From a virus, in the IMG/VR virus record IMGVR_UViG_3300044673_000132, positions 1 through 27,568 of that record: 27,568 nt of DNA. The stretch is one strand, 5' to 3'. The notes below the pieces were generated by a model, which ran no database searches, had not been told where the DNA came from, and saw only the letters and a program-made list of their open reading frames with translations. The position numbers and the translations under genes were made by a program. Each line of letters opens with the position of its first letter. The first letter of the stretch is position 1. Below, piece after piece: positions 2,882 to 24,364 of this stretch.

Positions 2882-4329
2882 TAGACCGCGCCCTCCGTCC
2901 AGTTCAAGTTCGCCGAAATGATCGGCGAGAACACCGGATCGGTGATCGTCACTTCGAAGATGCGGTCGCGCGACATGCCGAGCGGCCCCGGCCAGCGGCA
3001 GCGGTTTTTGTAGCGCCCCGTCTTGCCCATCGCGGCCCACTTCTCCGAGCTCCACGTGAATCCGCCGTCATCGCTGTAGCGCAGCATCGCCTTCGGGTCG
3101 CTGCCCTGCCCCGTGGCGAGACCGACCCCGGGTTGAAACTGGATTTGAAAGTCGTGGTAATAGACCTGCTTCAGGTCCGAGGTGAGGTGACGGGCACGGC
3201 GAATCCGCGGGATCGGGTTGCCGATGTCCGAGTAGTCGGTGAAGCTCGACAGCGACGCCTCGTAGAGCAGCCCTCGCGCGTAATCGCCGAACAGGTTCTG
3301 GCCCTGGAAGAACACCGCGCAGTTCGTGCGCTCGCGGTGCAGCACGTTCTCGGTGTCGCGCGAGGCGCGGCGATGCCAAAGGCCAGTGGTGGCGTCATAG
3401 CACCAGGTCCGATCCGCGGTCGGGAAGTTGAGCACGTAGAACTCATGGCCCGCCTGCTGGTAGCTCATGCCGATGGCGTCGCTGTAGACCGAATACGTCT
3501 CGATCTCCTTCTCGATCGCGTAGGTCGAGATCCGCTCCGGCGTGTAGCCGTTCATTTGAACGACCGTGCTAATGCCGCGATCGTCCTGCGCGAGAAAGGC
3601 GAAGGTTTCGCCCAGACGCGCGACCGAATGCTTCGCGGCGCACCCGTGCTGCATGTTCGTTCCCGGCAACTTCTGGAAGGGGAACGGGAAGAGGCCCGCG
3701 TCGACCCACACCTCGCTCGTGCGCTCGCCCAGCAGGAAAATCTCCCGCTTGTTGACGATGAGCGAGATGATGTTGTCGGTGGCGCTATCCTTCCGGCCGA
3801 AGTTGAGGCCGCTCGAGACGGTCGAGGCGATGTCGGTACAGCCCCAGGTGTTCGTGCCCGGGTCGTTGTAGATCACATAGTTGTCGATCACGTCGACGAT
3901 GTCGGCGCCCGTGAATGCGCCATCCACAAGCGTCTGGAAGAGCCCGGTGCCCCAGGTGTAGGCGTAGCGGTGGGCGCCGTCGGCGATGAAGAGCGAGGAG
4001 CCGTTGTCGGTCATGGAGACCGGGCCCGTCGACGTGGGGATCGTGGCGACCGCGGGGCCGGTGAAGTCCGGGCCCAGAACGAAGAGGCGGTTGCCAGCGA
4101 CCACGAAGAGGGTATTGCCGCCGGGCTGCGGCCAGGCGCCGCGCACCTCGACGGGAGAACCGAAGAAGCTGCGCGCGATGAAGCCGGGGGTGGGATAAAG
4201 CGCCACCACGCCGCGCTCGTTGGGCGACTTCGTGCGGTCGATCTCGGGATAGAGGTTGATGCACTCCTGCGCGTCCTGCGTGATCGAGGACGCGGTGTAG
4301 GCCTCGCCGACGAAGCCGAAGTCGGGCAT
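2881..4329 (-). CDS. P22 gp10-like packaged-DNA stabilisation / tail hub protein
   Basis: 482 residues from MPDFGFVGEAYTASS; the start is set by a TAATG overlap with the gp4-like gene. The N-terminus with QECINLYPEI and the following LYPTPGF, then a beta-rich body of short repeats (FVVAGNRLFVLG, NGSSLFIADGAHRYAYTWG, YVIYNDPG), match the P22 gp10 / phage_stabilise family, which is 472 residues in P22. gp10 forms a hexameric ring below the gp4 ring, closes the portal channel and carries the needle. The order gp4-gp10-needle is kept here. Some 27 codons upstream are open but would add residues lacking family similarity, so I reject them. Confidence 0.93.
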   Translation of the reverse strand: MPDFGFVGEAYTASSITQDAQECINLYPEIDRTKSPNERGVVALYPTPGFIARSFFGSPVEVRGAWPQPGGNTLFVVAGNRLFVLGPDFTGPAVATIPTSTGPVSMTDNGSSLFIADGAHRYAYTWGTGLFQTLVDGAFTGADIVDVIDNYVIYNDPGTNTWGCTDIASTVSSGLNFGRKDSATDNIISLIVNKREIFLLGERTSEVWVDAGLFPFPFQKLPGTNMQHGCAAKHSVARLGETFAFLAQDDRGISTVVQMNGYTPERISTYAIEKEIETYSVYSDAIGMSYQQAGHEFYVLNFPTADRTWCYDATTGLWHRRASRDTENVLHRERTNCAVFFQGQNLFGDYARGLLYEASLSSFTDYSDIGNPIPRIRRARHLTSDLKQVYYHDFQIQFQPGVGLATGQGSDPKAMLRYSDDGGFTWSSEKWAAMGKTGRYKNRCRWPGPLGMSRDRIFEVTITDPVFSPIISANLNWTEGAV

Positions 4330-5291
4330 TAGAGGAATCCGCCGTGCATGATCCATCCGGCATCGCGCCCCGAGCGCGCCGAGACGAGGTCGTCGAATCG
4401 TGCCGGCTCCTGCGGCACCTGGTTGACCCGCTTCACGAAGGATCGGCCTTGCGCGGCGTATTTCGGGACCAGCGCGCGCGTCTCCGACGACGCCCCGGAG
4501 GCCACCGGATACTCCGGCATGAGAAGCTCGGCCAGGCTATAGCGCAGCGCGATCGCATAGCCCTGCGGAAGCACAATGTCGTCGGTGAGCGTCTGGAATT
4601 GGTTCAGCACCGCGCTGCAGAAGAGGTGCATTTCGCACGCCTGCGACGGGTTGCCCCAATAGTTGATGACGCCCAGCGGCTCGGACGGCTGGTAGTAGAG
4701 CGCTCGAGGCCACGGCGCCGGCAGCGTCTTGATCCCGATGAGCTCGTACTGGCCCACGTTCAAGATGCTCACCGGGAAGTCGAGTGTGCCGGTGACGGAA
4801 TTCACCACGCGCACGAAGGCGCTATTGATGCGAAGCGGCCGCACGGCGTAGGAGGTGAAGGTGATCGGCCCCACGGTCTGCGTGTTGTTCACCATGTAGG
4901 TGCCAAGCGCGCCGGTGCCGTTGCCGCCCACGGCGGTGCCGAGCGACGTAATGGCGGTGCCCGAGAGCACGCCCGCGCCCGAGAGGGTCTGCCCCACCGA
5001 GAGCGCCCCCGCCGACAATCCCGTGACGGTGAGCGTGGTGCCGCTAATCGAGCCCGTGAAGGTCGCGCCGATCATGCCGCCGTTGCCGATCGTGTAGATG
5101 TACTGGTTCGGCACCAGCTCCTGGATCACCTCGTGGAGGCAGAACACCATGAGCTTCTGCGTGCTCCACTGGTCGATCATGTCGTTCAGCAGGTCGAACG
5201 AATCCGAGGCGATCTGCGGGTCGACCGGATCCCCGGAGGCCACCGCACCGATCGCGCGAAGCGCGCGGGTGACGATGTCGAGCGGCGTCAT
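4329..5291 (-). CDS. P22 gp4-like tail accessory factor with an inserted beta domain
   Basis: 320 residues. Residues 1-74 (MTPLDIVTRALRAIGAVASG ... DSFDLLNDMIDQWSTQKL ... YIYTIGNGG) and 149-300 (VRPLRINSAFVR ... YYQPSEPLGVINYWGNP ... AIALRYSLAELLMPEYP) match the gp4-like head-to-tail connector family, whose members assemble under the portal after packaging. P22 gp4 has 166 residues, so this protein is much longer. About 72 residues (75-146) interrupt the usual YTIG-to-RP.RI junction with a Gly/Thr/Ser-rich beta segment, listed separately. The gene starts at ATG 5291, three bases after the stop of the secreted-protein gene, and ends in a TAATG overlap with gp10. Confidence 0.9.
   Translation of the reverse strand: MTPLDIVTRALRAIGAVASGDPVDPQIASDSFDLLNDMIDQWSTQKLMVFCLHEVIQELVPNQYIYTIGNGGMIGATFTGSISGTTLTVTGLSAGALSVGQTLSGAGVLSGTAITSLGTAVGGNGTGALGTYMVNNTQTVGPITFTSYAVRPLRINSAFVRVVNSVTGTLDFPVSILNVGQYELIGIKTLPAPWPRALYYQPSEPLGVINYWGNPSQACEMHLFCSAVLNQFQTLTDDIVLPQGYAIALRYSLAELLMPEYPVASGASSETRALVPKYAAQGRSFVKRVNQVPQEPARFDDLVSARSGRDAGWIMHGGFL
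4854..5069 (-). other. Inserted Gly/Thr-rich beta domain inside the gp4-like gene
   Basis: Residues 75-146 read ATFTGSISGTTLTVTGLSAG, then an SVGQTLSGAGVLSGTAITSL segment and a GTGALGTYMVNNTQTV segment. The pattern FTGSI.GTTLTVT...G.L.VGQ.LSG.GV..GT.IT.LGTG.GG.GTY.V...QTV is a recurrent small beta module in phage tail and fibre proteins. Here it interrupts a connector family that normally lacks it. It is seen directly in the sequence; surface display on the virion neck is inferred. Confidence 0.8.
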
Positions 5292-5294
5292 GTC

Positions 5295-6083
5295 TCAGGG
5301 CCCGGGGGTGATCGACACGCGACCGTTCACGTGCACCAGGTTGTTCGTCGCGAGCGCGTTGGTGTACGTCCAGGAGACGGTTTGCGCCGTCGTGGTGTCG
5401 ACCACGGCATAGAGCGAGCCCACGGTGTCGGCGGCGATCGCCTGGATGTTCCCGGTGGTCTGCACGTTGGTGGCCCCGGCGTTCTGAATCCACCCCGCAT
5501 CGCCCACGGTGGACACGCTGGCGGCCAGGGTCTGGTAGACGATCCCGGTCGCGTGCTTCACCTTGATCGTCTTGCTGCTCGCGTTGTTCGTGGCCTGCGC
5601 GGTGTAGTCGAAGTCGATCCGGCCGCTGGGGCCCATCACGTTGGCCGGGATCGTGATCGTCGGGCCCGTGGTCTCGGCGGTCACGCCGGTGAAGGCACCG
5701 GGGCCCGTCGTCGCGAACGCGGTCTGAGTTCCGAGGGTGGGCACGCCCGAGGTATAGGTCGAATTGAAGCAAGTCCCCTGCGTGGACGAGGACCAGACCG
5801 ACCAGAACCAGGTGGCAGCCGCCGGGACACCGGCCGCGACGGCACCGGCGGGGAGCAGGACCCACGCGCCGCCGCTGTAGGTGGTCGGCAGCGCCGTGCC
5901 CAGCGTGATCGCGCAGTTGTTGGCCATCGTGCCGGTCGATGCCACGATGAACGGCACGCCCCACTTCGCGGCGTCATAGCGGACGCCGGAGACGCCGACG
6001 ACACCGGAGGCCCGGAGATCCGCGTGAGCGGCCGGCGCGAAGGCGAGCAGCGCTGCGACGAAGAGATTCAGCAGGCGGCGCAT
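5295..6083 (-). CDS. Secreted protein with Sec signal peptide, unknown function
   Basis: 262 residues. The N-terminus MRRLLNLFVAALLAFAPAAHA followed by DLRAS is a clear Sec signal peptide with a likely cut after residue 21. The rest is Ala/Thr/Gly/Val rich and probably all beta, with four Cys-poor blocks and no catalytic motif I recognise. The gene starts one base after the preceding secreted-protein gene and three bases before gp4, so it is embedded in the head-tail assembly operon. Export would take it away from capsids assembling in the cytoplasm, which is odd. It could alternatively use the hydrophobic N-terminus as a virion anchor. Confidence 0.78.
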   Translation of the reverse strand: MRRLLNLFVAALLAFAPAAHADLRASGVVGVSGVRYDAAKWGVPFIVASTGTMANNCAITLGTALPTTYSGGAWVLLPAGAVAAGVPAAATWFWSVWSSSTQGTCFNSTYTSGVPTLGTQTAFATTGPGAFTGVTAETTGPTITIPANVMGPSGRIDFDYTAQATNNASSKTIKVKHATGIVYQTLAASVSTVGDAGWIQNAGATNVQTTGNIQAIAADTVGSLYAVVDTTTAQTVSWTYTNALATNNLVHVNGRVSITPGP

Positions 6084-6084
6084 G

Positions 6085-6474
6085 TCAGCGGCCCTCGCCG
6101 GGGGTCACTTCGAAGGTAAACGTGGTCCCGGCCTGGAACCAGGCGTTCGACGGCAGCGTGAAGGTCTCCACGCTCTGCGGAAGCATGCCGATCACGTTCG
6201 CCGCAGGGACGCCCGCGGTGGGCGCCGCGGCCGAGAGGCCCGTCGGAGCGCCGCCGCCCGCGTTGTTGGGCGTGGCCCATGTGAAGTAGGCCGTGGTCGC
6301 GCCCAGGTTGCGCACGCGGTAGCTCATCGTCGGCGTGCCGCCCGAGCTCAACACCTGGCGCGCGGTGGTGTCGACGAGCACGGTCGGGCCGCTCGGGGCG
6401 AAGGCCCACTCGTTCGCCGCCCATGCGGGCGCGGCGAACACCAGGAACGCCAGCAGTGCGAGCAGGCGCTTCAT
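6085..6474 (-). CDS. Small secreted protein with Sec signal peptide, unknown function
   Basis: 129 residues. MKRLLALLAFLVFAAPAWA then ANEWAF is a textbook Sec signal peptide with an AWA cut site. The mature part (about 110 residues) resembles a single beta-sandwich: LVDTTARQVLSSGG, TMSYRVRNLGATTAYFTW, VETFTLPSNAWFQAGTTFTFEV. This looks like a small Ig-like or virion-decoration fold, but I cannot name a family. It follows the 109-residue repeat protein by three bases and precedes a second secreted protein by one base. No obvious Shine-Dalgarno lies before its ATG, so translation may be coupled to the gene upstream. Confidence 0.78.
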   Translation of the reverse strand: MKRLLALLAFLVFAAPAWAANEWAFAPSGPTVLVDTTARQVLSSGGTPTMSYRVRNLGATTAYFTWATPNNAGGGAPTGLSAAAPTAGVPAANVIGMLPQSVETFTLPSNAWFQAGTTFTFEVTPGEGR

Positions 6475-6477
6475 GGC

Positions 6478-6807
6478 CTACAGCGCCGTGGTGGGCAGGT
6501 TGGCCGGGTTCTCGGGGCGATCGACCGCGATCGTGTACTGGCCGGAGGCGGGGGTGAGCGGGCCGCCGGTCGAATTCGAGAACGTGATCGCGAGGGTGTC
6601 GGCCGCGGACACGCGCGCGTTCGCGATGCCGATCCCGGCGGTCTGGGCGGCGTTGAGCGTCACCGAGACGATGTCGGTCGGCAGCAGGCCCTTCACGGTG
6701 AATGTCTGCTCGGCGGTCGTGTTCTGGTTCACGCTGGCCGGGGTCAGCGTGGGGCCGATGAGGAATCCCGCGAGGATGTTGCCGCGGGCGAGGGTGGAGC
6801 TGGGCAT
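6478..6807 (-). CDS. Single-repeat beta protein, paralogue of the adjacent multi-repeat protein
   Basis: 109 residues starting at ATG 6807, with AAGGAG seven bases upstream; the longer open frame upstream is a shadow of the neighbouring gene. Residues about 21-98 (LTPASVNQNTTAEQTFTVKG ... GIGIANARVSAADTLAITFS) are one copy of the unit that occurs four times in the gene at 6864-8285. It probably folds as one Ig-like beta-sandwich. Position just after the coat gene suggests head decoration or a short surface fibre. A perfect hairpin lies between the two genes. Confidence 0.83.
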   Translation of the reverse strand: MPSSTLARGNILAGFLIGPTLTPASVNQNTTAEQTFTVKGLLPTDIVSVTLNAAQTAGIGIANARVSAADTLAITFSNSTGGPLTPASGQYTIAVDRPENPANLPTTAL

Positions 6808-8297: not shown

Positions 8298-9551
8298 TTA
8301 CGCCGCCACGCGGCAGCCGAGTTCCTGGTACAGGGGGGCCCATCCGTAGAGCACGTCGAGACGGGTCGGGATCGAGTCGTTGTTGATCGTGTACTGCCGC
8401 ACCACGCGGATGGAGAGCCCGACCTCCTTGTCGGAGGCGCGGCCGGCGAAGTGCACGCCCTCGGGAAGCTCGAGGTCGGCGACCGCCAGCGTGTAGGCGT
8501 TGCGGTGGAACAGCAGGTTCTGGGGCGACACGACGGCGTTCGCGCTGCCCGTGGTGACCAGGCTCGCGAAGGTGACCGCGGCACCGGAGGCCGGGGAGGC
8601 CGTCACGTTCTGGAACTGGCCCGCGGAGATGAGCGCCGGGGACACGGTCACGTTGAAGTTGCCCGCGCCGGTCTGGCTCACCGCAGCCGTCACGACGAAG
8701 TTGCGCAGCTTGCCGTAGCTCTGGCGGTTCTGCGGGTTCACCGCGAAGACGCCGGCCAACTGGATCACGTCGCCCTGCTGCAGCGTGAGGTTGTTCGCGC
8801 TGTTGTTGAGCGAGATCGTCGAGGTCGAGGCCCAGCCCGTCGTGAGGCCTTGGCCGGGGCCGTTCACCGTCACGTTCGTGGCGCCGGTTGCGAACCCGAA
8901 GGTCTGCGACACGACGTTCTGGTCCATCTTCCAGTTCATGCCGCCGGAGTCCCGACCCATGAGGCCCTTGCGGTACTGGTCGCCGATCACGTCGGAGGGC
9001 ACGAAGAGGCCCTTCAGGCTGTCGACGATCGCGGCCGAGGTGAAGGGCTCGATCACGACGCAGCGGCGGCCGTCACGCGGCGCGCCCTCGGCGTCGAGGA
9101 AGGCGCCGGCGGTGAGGTAGGTGAGCAGGCCCGTGGGCGTGGTGCCCGGGGTGCCGACCAGGTTGGCGGTGCTGTTCTTCGCCATCACCAGACCGTCGCG
9201 GTCGATCTTGTTCGCGATGGCGGCGACCGCGGGCTTCAGCACGCGCTGGCTGAACATGTCCAGGGACAGCGCCAGGTCCTGCGTCGTGAACTGCGTATCG
9301 ACGTGGAACTGCGTGGTGAGGGTGACCGGGACCGAGGTCTCGTTGAAGTCCTCTACGTTCAGCGCCGGGCCCGTGGTGCCGATGAAGCGCGGCGGGCGGC
9401 GGACGTTGACGACGTTGCCGATCTTCGCGCCGACGACGGCGAATTGGTCGTCATAGTCGCGATTGACTTCGCTGGTGAAGGTGAGCTCGTTCTCGAGGAC
9501 CATCAACGCTTCGTTGGTGATCTTCGAGATGGTCAGAAGTTGATTCGACAC
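8298..9551 (-). CDS. P22 gp5-like major capsid (coat) protein
   Basis: 417 residues. The start is GTG at 9551, giving MSNQLLTISKITNEALMVLE; AGGAG lies seven bases upstream. The N-terminus with EALMVLENELTFTSEVNRDY, GNVVNVRRPPRF and DTQFTTQDLALSLDMFSQRV is characteristic of the P22 coat family (430 residues in P22), an HK97-fold shell protein with an extra I-domain. The central Ala/Gly/Val/Thr region (about 215-325) is where the I-domain would fall. It lies directly after the scaffold gene, as in P22. Its ribosome binding site is inside a perfect hairpin (9557-9584). Confidence 0.93.
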   Translation of the reverse strand: MSNQLLTISKITNEALMVLENELTFTSEVNRDYDDQFAVVGAKIGNVVNVRRPPRFIGTTGPALNVEDFNETSVPVTLTTQFHVDTQFTTQDLALSLDMFSQRVLKPAVAAIANKIDRDGLVMAKNSTANLVGTPGTTPTGLLTYLTAGAFLDAEGAPRDGRRCVVIEPFTSAAIVDSLKGLFVPSDVIGDQYRKGLMGRDSGGMNWKMDQNVVSQTFGFATGATNVTVNGPGQGLTTGWASTSTISLNNSANNLTLQQGDVIQLAGVFAVNPQNRQSYGKLRNFVVTAAVSQTGAGNFNVTVSPALISAGQFQNVTASPASGAAVTFASLVTTGSANAVVSPQNLLFHRNAYTLAVADLELPEGVHFAGRASDKEVGLSIRVVRQYTINNDSIPTRLDVLYGWAPLYQELGCRVAA

Positions 9552-9556
9552 GATGT

Positions 9557-9584
9557 CGCTCCTAAAAAGTAAGATTTAGGAGCG
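9557..9584 (-). promoter_or_regulatory. Perfect hairpin occluding the coat-protein ribosome binding site
   Basis: Minus-strand arms CGCTCCTAAA (9584-9575) and TTTAGGAGCG (9566-9557) pair over 10 bp around an 8-base A/T-rich loop. The AGGAG at 9563-9559 in the second arm is the only Shine-Dalgarno for the coat GTG at 9551. The stem lies wholly between the scaffold stop (9591) and the coat start. Folding would hide the site; ribosomes finishing scaffold, or RNase cleavage, could open it. Confidence 0.7.
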
Positions 9585-9590
9585 CCGGTG

Positions 9591-10580
9591 CTACTTGATC
9601 TTGCCCGCCTTTCGTTGGGCCTTCCATTCGGCGTAGGTGCCATGGAACACGCCGTCTCCGTCGACGGACGCGCCTGCCACGGCGGAACCACTACCCCGGA
9701 TGGGAGAGATCGGTGCCGGCGCTCGGGAAATTTCCGTCGCGGCGGCAGCAGGCTTGCGGGCTTCGTCGCCCTTGGGCTCGGGCGCTTTCGCGCTGGCGAG
9801 CTTCGCTTCCAACTTCCCGAGTTCGCGCAGCGCCGCCCCGGCCTTGAGCGCGTTGATGCGCTGGGCGTCGGCGGGGTTCTGCGCGAAGTGGTACAGGATC
9901 TGCGGCCCGACCTCGCTGTCGAGGATCGCGTCGCGTAGCTCGTTGCTCACCGCGACGGGGCTCGCCGCGATGACCGCCTCGTAGTCCTCCGCGGTCGCCT
10001 TGAACGCGGCCTGGCGCTCGCGGAAGGCTTCGATCGCCTTCTGCTGCGCTTCCTGGGCACGTGCCTCGGCTTCCTTGGCGTCGCGGTCGTGCAACGCCTT
10101 GTCGGTGGACCATTCGGCGAGCGCCTTCGCGTACTCGAAGGCATCCTTGAACTGCTCCGGCTTGGGCTCCGGGCCCAGCTCGTCCTGCTCGGCTTGCGCC
10201 GGGGGGTTGAGCTTGGCCTCGAGGTCCCGCGCTCGCTTCTCCGCCAGTTCGCGCGCGTCGCGCTCGGCTTTCAGGTCGGCCGCATTCTTCTCGGCCAGCG
10301 CCTTCGCCTCGTCGCGCTGCTTCGACAGCTCGGAGAAACGCAGATTGAGCTTTTGCTTCTTCTCGGGGTCGGACTCGGCCTGCTGCTGCGCCGCTTCCTT
10401 CGCCCCGGGCTCTTCGCCGTGAGCAGCCTCGGACGACTCAACCGAGCCCGATTCCCCACCGTCGGCCGCGTTGGCGGCGTCGGGCGCGGGTTTGTCGGGC
10501 GCGGGCTCAGTCACGAGGCCCAGCTTCTTCGCGTAGAAGTCCTGGGCGTTCTCGCTTGTCAGAACGACAGCGTCGCTCAA
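9591..10580 (-). CDS. Scaffolding protein (P22 gp8-like by position)
   Basis: 329 residues if TTG at 10580 is the start (MSDAVVLTSENAQDFYAKKLG); GGTGGAG stands just before it. An ATG at 10676 is in frame, but it would add a Pro-rich leader reading through the promoter element, which I reject. The protein is highly charged: an Ala/Pro/Glu-rich stretch (about 20-70), then a long coiled coil (about 70-125, KLNLRFSELSKQRDEAKALA onward), a middle with EDYEAVIAASPVAVSN and a basic C-terminus ending KAQRKAGKIK. Scaffolds are similarly helical with a basic coat-binding tail. It lies between portal and coat as in P22. Confidence 0.85.
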   Translation of the reverse strand: MSDAVVLTSENAQDFYAKKLGLVTEPAPDKPAPDAANAADGGESGSVESSEAAHGEEPGAKEAAQQQAESDPEKKQKLNLRFSELSKQRDEAKALAEKNAADLKAERDARELAEKRARDLEAKLNPPAQAEQDELGPEPKPEQFKDAFEYAKALAEWSTDKALHDRDAKEAEARAQEAQQKAIEAFRERQAAFKATAEDYEAVIAASPVAVSNELRDAILDSEVGPQILYHFAQNPADAQRINALKAGAALRELGKLEAKLASAKAPEPKGDEARKPAAAATEISRAPAPISPIRGSGSAVAGASVDGDGVFHGTYAEWKAQRKAGKIK

Positions 10581-10672
10581 AGCTCCACCCCGTAGGGGGC
10601 CATCGAGCGCGGGCAAAGAGCATCCCCTGGGGTGCCCAGCATCCGGGGACGGGTGGTCAATTCCATAGCAGG

Positions 10673-10707
10673 GCACGCTATGAAGGCCATAATTTTGTTG
10701 TCAAGCC
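10673..10707 (-). promoter_or_regulatory. Promoter-like element A upstream of scaffold/coat genes
   Basis: On the minus strand GGCTTGACA (TTGACA at 10704-10699, a perfect -35 box) is followed by AAAAT, GGC and TTCATAGCGT. The same 35-bp element recurs at 16002-15968 with 28 identical positions and no gaps. The -10 would be in CATAGCGT at 16-18 bp spacing, a poor sigma70 match, so an activator or a phage-specific form is possible. It overlaps the portal stop codon and would fire toward scaffold and coat. Confidence 0.65.
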
Positions 10708-12809
10708 CCCTGGGTTTCGGCCGGTTGCGGGAGGGCGGCATCCTCGGCCGCCTTGCCCTGCTGCTCGGCATCCCGCTGGGCGATCTCCATTTGCAGGTGC
10801 CGGGTGTCGACGTGGGCGAGGAGCAGCTTCACCAGCCCGTCGATCTCGGCCACGTTCTGCTTCGTGACGGCCATCGTCTCGGTGTCGTGGCGCTTGGTCG
10901 CGGCCAGGGTCTCGATGTCGTGCGCCTTCGTGGTCTGCCGGATGAGCTCGCGCTTCGTCTCCTCGGACTGCTTCATTTGCTCGATGCCCGTCTTGAACTT
11001 GATCTCCATGCCGGCGGCCTTGAGGGCTTCCATGGACTGATCGAGGTTCTTCTTGAGCGTGAGGATCATCATTTGCGCCTGGGGCGGGATCTCGCTCTCC
11101 TCGTCGACCTGCGAAAGCGGGTTCGCCGCGGCGAGGCGATCGGCCACCACGTCGGAGCCGGGGAAGTCCATCATGCGCACGATGATGTCGTCGGCCACCT
11201 GCGCGATCTTCTCCCCGAGCGGCGTCGGCAGCAGTTGCAGGAGGTTGGAAACGGCTTCCTGGCGGCGGGAGTTGTAGCCGGGGCCGGTTTCCATCACCAC
11301 GTCGAAGGTGCCCACGGTCACGTCGTTGAGCACCTTCTCGATCGCGCCCGTGGTCGGGTCGAGTTGCTTCTGGTTCAGCGTGACCAGCTTCGGCCGGCCG
11401 TCCTCGCCGATGATGCGTTGAACGCGCTGCGTGTCCCAGATCACCGGGGTCCAGTCGAGGATGATGCGGCCGGTATGCTTCAGGGACCTCGTCAAGTTAT
11501 CGTAGAAGTGATAATTGGCGATGTCGGTCTGCTGCTGCTCGGCGTTCAGCGTCTTGTCGCTCTTGCGCTGCGCGCCACCCCGAACCGCGGGGTCGAACAT
11601 GCCGAGCACGCGCTGCAGGTTCTGCGAGGCGGCCAGCGCCGCCATCATCGCGCCCTCGGGTGGGGGCTCCGGTTGCAGGCGTTGCGGAGGCGCGATCGGG
11701 TTGCCGTTCTCGTCCTTCTCGTTGTAGTGCAGCGTGGGCAGCGCGGAGTTGTTCGCCTGGCGCCATTCCTGCTCGAATCCCTCGTCGAATCCCGCCGGGC
11801 CCATCCACTTCGCTTTCGGCGCCAGCGCCACGCTCTCGGTGATGCTGGTCTGCCAGAAGTTGACCATGCGCTGCGGGTCCTTCGCGAAGCGCACCATGCC
11901 GAACCGGCGGCGCTTGCCGTCGACGATGATCGAAACGCCATAGACGGGCACGATCGGGATGAAGCGGCCCGGGATTTCCTTTTCCTCGAGCGTCTCGAAG
12001 GCGGTCACCTTCGACCACATCACTTTGCGCTTCCAACTGTCGCGCGTCTGCACCACGGTGATGCCTGCCTTGTCGAGTAGCGTCTTCGGCGGGAGATCGT
12101 CCTCGTAGACGGGCGTCCCATCCGAGAGCATCACCAGCCGGGCGCGCTTGCGCTCCACCTTGAACATTTCGGCGATGCGGATGTCGTGCACCGAGATCCA
12201 CTCGGCGGTGGAATCGCCCGAGCCGCGGGCGGTGAAGCCGCCCAGCATGGCGCCGGGGTGCTGCTTCAGGAATTCCCGCTTCGGCATTTGGTCGGTGATG
12301 AGCGCGCGCTCGGCGTCGGACCCGTCGGGGAGCGAGGAGTTGGGGTCGAAGTAGACGGTGAACGGGTTCTCGACCGGGTCGACGTAGATGTCCTGGAAGA
12401 ACGAATCCTCGCGGATGTAGTCGGTGCGCAGCCGCCAGTAGCCCCACCCCATCGTGATCGCGAACTCGCTCGCGAGGTCATAGGCGTTGAAGGCGTCGGA
12501 ATTCTCCTCGACGTGCCGGTTCAACCCCGTGATGACCTGGGCCACCTTGGGATCGGCGCGACTGTCGACCGGCTGTGCCTTGATTCGCGGGCGCTGCTGC
12601 CGGATCTGGTTCACCACTGCGCGCACGTAGGAGTCGGTCTCGTTGATCGTGAACCACGGCCGATCCTGAAGCTCGCGCGTGTTCTGCATCTGCGTGGGCC
12701 ACTGGTCCCCGAAGCGGAACTTCAGGTCGTCGAGGGCCTCGGCGCGGTTGTTGCTCTCCGCCTCGACCACCAGGCGCAGGAATTCGACGGCTTCGTCAGG
12801 CGTGGCCAT
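10701..12809 (-). CDS. P22-like portal protein
   Basis: 702 residues, close to P22 gp1 (725). The N-terminal body has RAEALDDLKFRFGDQWP, RPWFTINETDSYVRAVVNQI and QQRPRIKAQPVD, followed by SEFAITMGWGYWRLRTDYI and NPFTVYFDPNSSLPDGSD, all characteristic of the P22-type portal family. The C-terminal part (about 580-702) is a long charged helical barrel with coiled-coil character and Gln-rich ends. The dodecameric portal forms the packaging vertex and receives the terminase. ATG at 12809 overlaps the preceding small gene by 14 nt. Confidence 0.95.
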   Translation of the reverse strand: MATPDEAVEFLRLVVEAESNNRAEALDDLKFRFGDQWPTQMQNTRELQDRPWFTINETDSYVRAVVNQIRQQRPRIKAQPVDSRADPKVAQVITGLNRHVEENSDAFNAYDLASEFAITMGWGYWRLRTDYIREDSFFQDIYVDPVENPFTVYFDPNSSLPDGSDAERALITDQMPKREFLKQHPGAMLGGFTARGSGDSTAEWISVHDIRIAEMFKVERKRARLVMLSDGTPVYEDDLPPKTLLDKAGITVVQTRDSWKRKVMWSKVTAFETLEEKEIPGRFIPIVPVYGVSIIVDGKRRRFGMVRFAKDPQRMVNFWQTSITESVALAPKAKWMGPAGFDEGFEQEWRQANNSALPTLHYNEKDENGNPIAPPQRLQPEPPPEGAMMAALAASQNLQRVLGMFDPAVRGGAQRKSDKTLNAEQQQTDIANYHFYDNLTRSLKHTGRIILDWTPVIWDTQRVQRIIGEDGRPKLVTLNQKQLDPTTGAIEKVLNDVTVGTFDVVMETGPGYNSRRQEAVSNLLQLLPTPLGEKIAQVADDIIVRMMDFPGSDVVADRLAAANPLSQVDEESEIPPQAQMMILTLKKNLDQSMEALKAAGMEIKFKTGIEQMKQSEETKRELIRQTTKAHDIETLAATKRHDTETMAVTKQNVAEIDGLVKLLLAHVDTRHLQMEIAQRDAEQQGKAAEDAALPQPAETQGA

Positions 12810-12984
12810 TCAGGTTCTCCAGGAGCCGGGCACCGTTGGGCCCGAACCAGGTTATGAATTGATCGGCAAGTGGGGGCGAGAGCACCAGGCGCGCCACCTC
12901 GATCACGCGCTGGGATGTCAATGGCTTGTCCTCGCCCTGCAGCGCCTTGGTGAGCAGCGCGACCACGTCTTCACGCGCGGGCAT
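12796..12984 (-). CDS. Small conserved-position protein between terminase and portal
   Basis: 62 residues (MPAREDVVALLTKALQGEDK ... FITWFGPNGARLLENLNGHA). It overlaps genes on both sides by 14 nt, which supports translation. It looks like a small helical domain with a Trp-Phe-Gly-Pro turn. I do not recognise a family. Location suggests a packaging or head-assembly accessory. Confidence 0.7.
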   Translation of the reverse strand: MPAREDVVALLTKALQGEDKPLTSQRVIEVARLVLSPPLADQFITWFGPNGARLLENLNGHA

Positions 12985-13237
12985 GTTCGTTCGCCTTGTC
13001 GAAGTCGCTCGCTACCGTCTGCCCGTTCTCGGCCACGAGGGCGAGGTGCGGCTTCGCGTGCTGCTCGTAGAAGAGTTTCAGCGCGTTGTGGGCGTCGACC
13101 ATTTCCTGCGCCGCGATCTCGTGCTGCCGGCGGTGCAGGCGGTCCCGCGGAACGGAATGGAACTCGGTCCACGTCGAGTAGAAGGCCCGCAGCAGGACGA
13201 GATCGGTGTTGGTGTTGGTGCCGGTGTCGGTCGTCAT
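12971..13237 (-). CDS. Small helical protein of unknown function
   Basis: 88 residues from ATG 13237, set by an ATGA overlap with the large terminase stop. The longer open frame upstream is a shadow of terminase. A Thr/Asn-rich N-terminus (TDTGTNTNTD) precedes a helical part with FHSVPRDRLHRRQHEIAAQE and a Cys-free amphipathic stretch. It overlaps the next gene by 14 nt. No family recognised. Confidence 0.72.
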   Translation of the reverse strand: MTTDTGTNTNTDLVLLRAFYSTWTEFHSVPRDRLHRRQHEIAAQEMVDAHNALKLFYEQHAKPHLALVAENGQTVASDFDKANEHARA

Positions 13238-14664
13238 GCTTGCCACCCCACGGGCATGTAGTCGACCGCCTGGCGCTTCTTCGCCTTCACCGCGGCGTGG
13301 CGGCGCATCATCATGGCGTAGCGGGTTGCCGAGAGCAGGTCGTCGTTCTGTTTCACGATGAGGCCGTCCTTTCGGTGGTAGAGGCGGAATTCCTCGAACC
13401 AGTCGTTGAGGTGGGAGAAGACGCGCAGCCGGCCGGTCTGCATCCGGTCGAGCATTTCGGAGACCCCCGCCTCGAGGCCGTTGGAGCCGTCGGCGAAGGT
13501 GGCGCGCTCGGGCAGCATCTTGAGACCCTGCGCGAGATATTGGTGGGCGAGCTGCTCGCCGCTGCCCTTGTCGTGCTGCAGGCCGTCGTGAGGCCACGCC
13601 CACGGCAGCCAGGCGCCCCACGGCTTGACCGAGGCGGCGAACATGAGCGGCGTCTGCTCGCGAGCCCGCACCGCGCCAATCACATAGAGGATGTCGTTAT
13701 CCCGATCCCACGCGAGGCGTGCACCGGCGCTCGGGTGGTCCCAACCGAAGTCGATCCCGGCGATTTGCGGCCAGTGCGCGGGGATTTCGAAGGGCTCGAT
13801 CGAGACGAACTCCTCCTCGATCGGAAAGACGCGGCCGGAACCCATCGTCGGGATTCCCTTCGCGCGGGCGTCTCGCTCGTGCTTCGGATAGCTCGCGATG
13901 ATCGCCGCACGCTGCTCCGGGGTGTAGTGGAGCGCGTCCTCGATCGTCATTTGCGTCACGTGCGTGCCGGGCATCTTGTCCACGAGGAACCTCTTCACCA
14001 CTTCGGACATGCCGAGAAGCGGCGTGAAGGTGAGCAGCACCGGGCCCATGGCCACGTTGGTGCGCGTGAGGCCCTCCGTGTAGATGTCCGCGGGCGGCTC
14101 TTCGTCGAACCAGACGAGCAGCAGGGTCGGGCCCTGCCACTTCTCGCGGCCCTGGTCATAGGACTTGAAGCCGATGAGGGTCTCGCCGGCTTGCACATCC
14201 CCGCCGCCGCCGTGGCGCACCACCATGGTGTCGAGCGCATCGGCGAGGCCTCGGCGGCTCGTCTTTTCCTTGATCGCGTCCTTCGGGACCATCCCGGTGC
14301 CCGGGGCGTTCGTGGGCCCGTACAGGATCCGCTGGGGGTTGTCGCGGGTCGATTCGCCGGTGACGCCGGAGACCCACATCGCGCCAGGCTTGTCGAAGAC
14401 GCGGCCCTGCCACCATTCGGGGTAGCGGCCGGTGGCGTGGATGGCGACCTCGGCGCCGGCCGAAAGGGTTTTCCCGAGCTGGTTGCCGGCCATGAGCAGG
14501 CGTTCACGGTGGTGCGCGCCCGCCGCATGGAAATCAGCCTGCTTCAGGTAGGGCTGATACTCCCGGAGCCGGTTGAACGCTCGGCGCTGCGCCTTCTCCT
14601 GCTCCAGCACTTGCCGCAGCTTCGAGGGCTCGCACGGTAGCGAGAGCGGCTTCGAGTTGCTCAT
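13234..14664 (-). CDS. terL: Terminase large subunit (P22 gp2-like)
   Basis: 476 residues, close to P22 gp2 (499). The packaging ATPase has Walker A AGNQLGKT (59-66) after RERLLM, and Walker B LLLVWFDEEP (181-190, Asp187-Glu188). The nuclease domain opens with the metal-binding GIDFGWDHP (Asp305), and further acidic residues lie near NDDLLSATRYA. It cuts concatemers and pumps DNA through the portal. ATG at 14664 lies 131 nt inside the small-subunit gene in another frame. The family motif YQPYLKQADFH falls within that overlap, so at least part of the dual coding is real. Its end makes an ATGA overlap with the 88-residue gene. Confidence 0.95.
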   Translation of the reverse strand: MSNSKPLSLPCEPSKLRQVLEQEKAQRRAFNRLREYQPYLKQADFHAAGAHHRERLLMAGNQLGKTLSAGAEVAIHATGRYPEWWQGRVFDKPGAMWVSGVTGESTRDNPQRILYGPTNAPGTGMVPKDAIKEKTSRRGLADALDTMVVRHGGGGDVQAGETLIGFKSYDQGREKWQGPTLLLVWFDEEPPADIYTEGLTRTNVAMGPVLLTFTPLLGMSEVVKRFLVDKMPGTHVTQMTIEDALHYTPEQRAAIIASYPKHERDARAKGIPTMGSGRVFPIEEEFVSIEPFEIPAHWPQIAGIDFGWDHPSAGARLAWDRDNDILYVIGAVRAREQTPLMFAASVKPWGAWLPWAWPHDGLQHDKGSGEQLAHQYLAQGLKMLPERATFADGSNGLEAGVSEMLDRMQTGRLRVFSHLNDWFEEFRLYHRKDGLIVKQNDDLLSATRYAMMMRRHAAVKAKKRQAVDYMPVGWQA

Positions 14665-23082: not shown

Positions 23083-23996
23083 GCATCTTCACGATCGACG
23101 GCGAGCCCGCGCCCGACGTGATCCAGGCTGCGGGACCGTCCGGGGTCACGCTCGAGCAGGCCATGCGGGACTACATCCACGAGCATGTGATCCCCCGCGG
23201 CGGGGATGCGAAGCGGGTCACGGCAGCGGCGCGGGACCTCTTCATCATCCTGGGCCCGGAGATCCGCGTCGAGGAAATGACGCGCGGGCACGGCCGGCAA
23301 TACGCCGAGGTTCGGAACAAGCAGGGCGTGAAGGGCGCGACCGCCCGGCGCGAGCTCACGTTCGCCCAGGCCGCGATAAACCACGCCAAGCGCGAGGGGC
23401 GGGTCGCCAAGGTCCCGGCCCTGTGGAAGCCCGAGCCCAGCACACCGCGCCTGCGCTTCCTCTCGCGCGACGAGTATCGGCGGCTCATGCAGGTGCCGAT
23501 GCCGCGCCGCATCAAGCTCTTTTTCCTACTCGCCTTCGGGACCGGCGCCCGATCGGAAGCGATCGAGGAGGCGACGTGGGACCGGCTCAACTGGACGGAG
23601 CGCACGCTCGACTACCGCGTGCCTGGCGTGAAGTACCGGAACAAGCGCCGCGTGATCGCGCCGTTGAACGACGAACTCTTCGCGCGCCTGCAATCCGCCT
23701 ATGAGCGGCGAGACCCCACCGACCCATTCGTGATCGGTCGAGGCCGCCCGCGCAAGAACGAGCGCGCCACGACCTACCACATGGCGAAGGCCGCGCTGGC
23801 CGCCATCGGGATCGACGAGGAGGGCGTTGCCCGTCACGTGGCCCGCCATACCTATGCAACCTGGCTGTTGCAGAAGGATGTGCCGATCGCCAAGGTGGCG
23901 GCGCTCCTGGGCGACAAGGTGTCCATGGTCGAGTCGACCTACGGGCATCTGCGACCGAGCGACCTGCACGGCGCGGCCAATGCGGTGGCCGCATGA
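23079..23996 (+). CDS. int: Tyrosine integrase
   Basis: 305 residues from ATG 23079 (ATGA overlap). An N-terminal SAM-like DNA-binding part (about 24-118) precedes the catalytic domain. Catalytic residues are Arg158 in FGTGARSEAI, a Lys near 185-189 (KYRNKRR), His253-x-x-Arg256 in RHVARHTYATWLL and the nucleophile Tyr288 in ESTYGHL. The usual His of LGH is Asp279 (LLGDK). It integrates or excises phage DNA by strand exchange through a 3'-phosphotyrosine. It lies inside the early operon rather than at its end, with no visible attP beside it. No excisionase was recognised. Confidence 0.93.
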   Translation: MSIFTIDGEPAPDVIQAAGPSGVTLEQAMRDYIHEHVIPRGGDAKRVTAAARDLFIILGPEIRVEEMTRGHGRQYAEVRNKQGVKGATARRELTFAQAAINHAKREGRVAKVPALWKPEPSTPRLRFLSRDEYRRLMQVPMPRRIKLFFLLAFGTGARSEAIEEATWDRLNWTERTLDYRVPGVKYRNKRRVIAPLNDELFARLQSAYERRDPTDPFVIGRGRPRKNERATTYHMAKAALAAIGIDEEGVARHVARHTYATWLLQKDVPIAKVAALLGDKVSMVESTYGHLRPSDLHGAANAVAA

Positions 23997-24364
23997 ATCG
24001 CCTTCTCGCCCTGCTCAAGCTCAACCCGCGCCGCGTCCTGCTCCTGGTGCTGCTCGCCGTCGCCGCGCTGTCGTTCCTGGCCTCATGCGCCACATTCGAT
24101 GCTCCTGCCGCGGGCGAGGATTCGCGCGGCTACGTCTGGACGGAGCGGAAGTGGCCGGCACTACCCGCGAAGTGGATCCCGGTGGAGAGCTACCAGGAAC
24201 TGCTCGACCGCTGCAAGCCGCCCGCGAGCCTCGCGATCGGAGCGTGCGCCGAGCGCCGCTACGACTTGAAGCTCTGCATCGTCTGGTATTGGCAGCCGCC
24301 CGACCAATACCTCGAGTGGCACGAGGCGAAGAAACACTGCGAAGAGGGGAGGGATCACCAGTGA
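23993..24364 (+). CDS. Lipoprotein of unknown function
   Basis: 123 residues from ATG 23993 (ATGA overlap with int). A membrane stretch (RRVLLLVLLAVAALSFLASC) ends in lipobox LASC with Cys32. The mature part contains YVWTERKWPALPAKWIPVES and several Cys (RCKPPASLAIGACAERR, LKLCIVWYW), possibly disulphide bonded in the periplasm. A following +2 Ala favours outer-membrane sorting. It could be an exclusion or conversion factor; no family recognised. Confidence 0.8.
   Translation: MNRLLALLKLNPRRVLLLVLLAVAALSFLASCATFDAPAAGEDSRGYVWTERKWPALPAKWIPVESYQELLDRCKPPASLAIGACAERRYDLKLCIVWYWQPPDQYLEWHEAKKHCEEGRDHQ

Follow-up and report, generated by a model that had tools for sequence, protein, structure and literature searches.

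The assembly of tailed phages is usually placed in the cytoplasm. What, then, are two consecutive genes with Sec signal peptides doing inside a head-tail operon? The question is raised by the 129-aa and 262-aa genes of IMG/VR record IMGVR_UViG_3300044673_000132, a virus record whose full 27,568 bp are referred to here as the window. A sequence-only reading of this DNA had pointed to the conflict between export and capsid assembly in the cytoplasm, and given the signal peptides described below, that conflict is a real puzzle.

Organization of the locus

The window comes from a P22-like podovirus with TerL and P22-type portal and coat genes, and the phage is probably temperate, with integrase and HTH genes on the opposite strand. 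Its minus-strand head-tail operon runs from coat through two repeat proteins, of 473 and then 109 aa, to the 129-aa and 262-aa genes and on to gp4-like and gp10-like genes, placing the pair between the two repeat genes and the gp4-like gene (Table 1). Both open reading frames were recovered at the place first read for them, on the minus strand, and the 1-bp gap between them is real: the stop codon TGA (6087-6085) is followed by one base and then by ATG (6083-6081). High GC3 is found in the pair, as in the other genes of the window.

Table 1. Coordinates of the features discussed, as positions in the window
Feature	Position	Strand	Evidence or remark
P22-like coat gene	8298..9551	-	PF11651, 1.8e-36
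473-aa repeat gene	8285-6864	-	Directly after coat in the operon
109-aa repeat-domain gene	6478..6807	-	Homologues in 46 relatives
129-aa gene, signal peptide + ~110-aa beta-sandwich	6085..6474	-	Homologues in 96 examined loci; AlphaFold2 pLDDT 89
Signal peptide 1, MKRLLALLAFLVFAAPAWA	6418..6474	-	Score 5.59; absent from all examined homologues
Mature 110-aa domain, ANEWAFAPSGPT...TPGEGR	6088..6417	-	62% identity to L162, 36-56% to others
GGCGAGGG, encodes invariant C-terminal GEG	6092..6099	-	Could double as ribosome-binding site for the 262-aa gene
262-aa gene, signal peptide + TNF/C1q-like fibre domain	5295..6083	-	Homologues; model pLDDT 83.6; fold matches
Signal peptide 2, MRRLLNLFVAALLAFAPAAHA	6021..6083	-	Score 5.26; absent from L162 homologue, whose Met1 aligns with D22
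LRA motif, residues 23-25 of the 262-aa protein	6009..6017	-	Just past the predicted cut, AHA/D-LRA
gp4-like tail accessory gene	4329..5291	-	phrog_12985, 1.2e-32; head-tail adaptor phrog_637, 0.0011

Two adjacent signal peptides

With a slash marking the predicted cut, the 129-aa protein begins MKRLLALLAFLVFAAPAWA/ANEW and the 262-aa protein MRRLLNLFVAALLAFAPAAHA/DLRA. Both have the n-, h- and c-regions of a Sec/signal peptidase I substrate and were scored with a simple n/h/c-region heuristic (positive n-region, uncharged hydrophobic h-region, AxA-type c-region), and the earlier description of both as textbook Sec signal peptides is borne out. Among 12 E. coli signal peptides used as controls, 8 were detected, at 4.1-5.2, which means that some true signals are missed by the score; the values of the pair exceed every detected control. 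Across the 169 six-frame ORFs of the window, none scored apart from the pair, a lipoprotein gene (at 23993) and a single weak match that is spurious. Likewise, none of the 520 distinct genes from the corresponding interval of 88 relatives scored above 4.3, and a single ORF, a spanin-like gene, reached 4.6 among the 4,378 ORFs of relatives fetched by then. Since nothing comparable turned up in these three sets, bar the exceptions named, a chance origin of the signals is excluded. Signal-like matches also occurred in this interval in L101, L139, L192 and others; with their lower scores, these were taken to be fibre starts or membrane segments.

The (-3,-1) rule for signal peptidase cuts favours the AWA and AHA sites, which are the ones first proposed and which homology also prefers; the score does not separate APA/W from AWA/A, or APA/A from AHA/D. 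A lipobox with Cys at +1 was looked for in both proteins, and no Cys stands at either predicted cut. A signal-less product from an alternative start was judged unlikely, as no in-frame start near the junction gives the native length; the nearest alternative is GTG12 of the 129-aa gene, a codon within the signal that no recognizable ribosome-binding site precedes.

Signals placed at ancestral N-termini

When either protein was used as a single query against PHROGs, Pfam, deposited phage genomes and IMG/VR, nothing matched significantly. Relatives were reached through the neighbouring coat and gp10 genes, and these relatives contain homologues of the 129-aa protein; the family search yielded 247 relatives, with 96 loci examined, some contigs being fetched twice. 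The homologues hold the same operon position wherever gene context is kept, and the window protein shares the hallmarks of this ~110-aa family of P22-like podoviruses, namely the pattern FxPxGPT...SYRVRN...TPGEG and a place between the head genes and gp4. No prophage homologue of the family was found in a genome scan. None of the 129-aa homologues in the 96 examined loci has a signal peptide, and the 19-residue N-terminal extension is found in the window member only; lack of the extension is a trait common to the examined members, not a formal criterion of the family.

In the homologues of the 129-aa protein, the initial Met coincides with the predicted cut of the window protein (M-AYNSPFSPFGPT against AWA/ANEWAFAPSGPT). 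A corresponding alignment is seen in the second gene. In L162, the closest relative, the gene after the 129-aa homologue encodes a counterpart of the 262-aa protein that has no signal peptide (228 residues aligned, 51% identical), and its M1 aligns with D22, the first residue past AHA. Between the 129-aa family gene and gp4, the relatives have variable, fibre-like genes. Of 44 distinct N-termini encoded by the first of these genes, 32 start M(x)LRA; a second count, made over 47 distinct junctions, gave 35. The LRA of the window protein would thus be an N-terminal docking motif. Once cleaved, both proteins would have exactly their ancestral N-termini, and for this reason the signal peptides read as additions: judged by these alignments, the two look like conserved appendage proteins with precisely added, cleavable signal peptides.

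A fibre domain and its presumed partner

The mature domain of the 262-aa protein, as modelled, resembles TNF/C1q-like and lectin jelly rolls. Its fold matches the short tail fibre domain of cyanophage A-1(L) (Z 8.8, rmsd 2.8, 116 residues), with which many other matches tie, as well as parts of phage spikes and depolymerases (C-termini). In L251, the same domain forms the end of a 727-aa fibre-like protein. With both the sequence homology and the jelly-roll fold of TNF/C1q-like phage fibre domains, the protein looks like a fibre domain of the receptor-binding type.

The 129-aa protein is predicted to be a small beta-sandwich. In fold comparison, only weak matches were obtained (best Z 5.7, SPP1 Dit), with no clear solved relative, and sequence matches of the family to solved proteins were likewise weak and unconvincing. 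Profile comparison links the family to another small family from the corresponding interval of other phages. By its position, the protein would be adaptor-like, and operon position and homology suggest that the family is virion-associated. One of the closest parallels is the podophage fibre and fibre-tail adaptor pair represented by GP4 gp77 (PF23148), in which, as here, a small beta protein gene lies beside a fibre. The 129-aa protein shows weak local similarity to PF23148 (E 0.08, below the family cut-off), and membership was rejected at 13.9 bits (13.5 in the whole record) against a curated cut-off of 27 bits. PF23148-type adaptors are not known to carry a Sec signal.

Signal-bearing fibres in other phages

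A search with the fibre-domain family gave 66 loci and 58 distinct proteins, including that of the window. Sec-type signals were found on 9 of the 58, in unrelated phage contigs, the lower-scoring of these (3.6-4.0) being less certain. Contig maps locate several of these fibres among the structural genes of phages. Those in contigs G014-G021 resemble the 262-aa protein in joining a C-terminal fibre domain to a Sec-type signal on a phage contig, but they belong to other phages and have other N-terminal parts and other small partners. In three contigs, further signal-bearing genes adjoin the signal-bearing fibres within the structural region. In L420 (G014), for example, signal-bearing genes of 139, 70 and 525 aa follow one another close to T7-like tail genes (phrog_394, phrog_376), with matches of the 525-aa product to tail-fibre PHROGs; a further one of 428 aa brings the signal-bearing genes at positions 9020-13805 of that contig to four. 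In G019, which has a P22 portal (3.5e-92) and a major head protein (phrog_334), a signal-bearing 118-aa gene overlaps a signal-bearing 339-aa fibre gene. Finally, of seven consecutive genes at 4754-11141 of L423 (G020), downstream of a tail-protein gene, five bear signals and one is lipoprotein-like, making this a long run of signal-bearing genes in a fibre region. A tape-measure gene lies near the fibre in L425 (G021), and a portal gene in L426 (G015). Three signal-bearing proteins of G014 and G020 had no full-length match in deposited phages.

On the domain tree, nine changes are needed for the nine signal-bearing rows, at least three of them on well-supported branches; exchange of domains among fibres may make this count too high. 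The window protein falls, with strong support, inside a group of signal-less relatives, and the signal label is not clustered.

Proposed export and late assembly

Two options had been offered for the pair, a free effector or a virion protein that reuses its hydrophobic N-terminus. The signals themselves have proved real, and by comparison a third reading, exported appendage proteins, fits better. We put at roughly 0.45 the probability that the pair is exported, matured in the periplasm and docked on virions at lysis, a reading drawn from sequence comparison. The lineage would have gained a Sec signal peptide exactly at the N-terminus of each protein; both proteins are predicted to be threaded through SecYEG and trimmed by signal peptidase I, which would leave them with the N-termini native to their relatives, and would then fold and pair in the periplasm until lysis mixes the compartments and an adaptor-fibre unit could join the virions. 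This scheme is supported by the residue-exact mature N-termini, the lack of an in-frame start for a native-length signal-less product, the position upstream of variable fibre genes, the M(x)LRA start of those genes and the fibre fold. Late joining to virions is favoured because the putative docking motif is preserved and because three other contigs also have signal-bearing genes side by side; a signal shared by neighbouring proteins fits a sub-assembly formed in one compartment. Such late addition is feasible, as the attachment of tailspikes and fibres to finished particles in vitro is classical for P22 and T4. Against export stands the fact that the closest signal-less relatives do without it. 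The wider proposition, that some lysis-exiting tailed phages route an adaptor and a fibre through the host Sec system and complete their virions only at lysis and beyond the cytoplasm, as a recurring arrangement gained more than once in Caudoviricetes, is put forward tentatively, at odds that fall clearly short of even.

The same textbook signals would also serve a secreted decoy or effector, in which the fibre domain and its partner are exported and act unattached, either within the periplasm or, once the cell has lysed, on debris and neighbouring cells, and no longer belong to the virion. A lectin/TNF-like fold suits receptor or glycan binding, and the virion could be served by another fibre-like gene of the phage, at 3055-1982. 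A free decoy, however, would need neither an adaptor-like partner nor an LRA motif, both of which are precisely kept, and the pair is without the lipobox or outer-membrane anchor of known receptor-masking phage proteins; we regard this explanation, in which receptors would be masked or progeny stopped from sticking, as possible but less likely. Also less likely is that the two are virion proteins assembled in the cytoplasm despite the signals, with export either sluggish or shut off late in infection, or with the hydrophobic N-terminus retained as a membrane or virion contact. Signal-less homologues do occupy the corresponding head-tail operon, but a retained 20-residue extension would hide the native N-termini, and yet the AxA sites fall exactly there in both genes; the n-h-c layout, moreover, recurs in unrelated fibres.

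Cysteines offer another possible motive for export. C57 and C105 of the 262-aa protein fall at positions without Cys in 12 aligned relatives, one of them a nearly invariant Gly, and the oxidising periplasm might be needed for a C57-C105 bond, with the partner exported to meet the fibre. This is improbable, given that cysteines are present in signal-less relatives too and that signal-bearing fibres are not significantly richer in Cys than signal-less ones (p = 0.11). The exact signal-bearing pair is found in one contig only, as chance or an assembly artefact might produce, an account that we consider barely credible in view of two textbook signals on adjacent genes, GC3 as high as in other genes and recurrence in other phages.

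Known systems offer partial parallels. The filamentous phage coat proteins pVIII and pIII are virion proteins with cleavable signal peptides that are assembled at the membrane. They are like the pair in their cleavable signals, but filamentous phages are extruded without lysis and are unrelated to P22-like phages. The receptor-masking proteins T5 Llp, N15/phi80 Cor and AH14a_p83 are likewise phage proteins routed out of the cytoplasm; these are lipoproteins or outer-membrane-directed and are not fibre domains, whereas the pair has no lipobox. The nearest case in the literature is AH14a_p83 itself, a lipoprotein gene in a structural cluster that its authors likened to Cor (PMC4936722). No description of Sec signals on tailed-phage fibres was found in the open literature, in a search that covered few subscription journals. 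The earlier statement that no function is described for such a pair thus holds as far as descriptions go, but it needs qualifying, in that other phages, too, have fibres with signals. Neither fibres nor signal peptides are new in themselves; new is their combination, with the signal exactly at the native N-terminus.

Taken together, the evidence suggests that, in some tailed viruses, a portion of the attachment apparatus is put together beyond the cytoplasm. The placement and recurrence of the signals make two ideas testable, that virion assembly finishes in the periplasm or the lysate, or that phages secrete receptor-binding domains. They also draw attention to fibre genes with signals as a class, whose products may be annotated as hypothetical or as host-like secreted proteins.

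Other features of the window phage

Coat relatives were found on contigs whose assignments include Paraburkholderia, Burkholderia, Burkholderiales and Methylococcales, besides other bacteria. Coat gene fragments at contig ends of an uncultured Burkholderiales MAG (L263, L264) are 92-93% identical to that of the window and provide a lead for the host; these nearest fragments found end short of the 129-aa/262-aa region. The 473-aa protein contains internal repeats, several relatives have a ~140-aa protein in its place, and it may be a head-decoration protein that has grown in size. In the gp4-like protein, residues about 59-158 match phrog_21413 (6e-16) and phrog_38233 (3e-11), one of which is a tail-fibre PHROG, and this stretch is perhaps a domain common to gp4 and fibres. 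The lipoprotein-like gene at 23993-24364, with a LASC lipobox, overlaps the end of the integrase gene and has a possible role as a spanin or lysogenic factor. Finally, the codons for TPGEG, the invariant C-terminal motif of the 129-aa family, contain a GGNGARGG-type sequence usable as the ribosome-binding site of the fibre gene. An SD-like match occurs at that place in 42 of 47 distinct junctions of relatives, and conservation of these residues may be partly due to translation.
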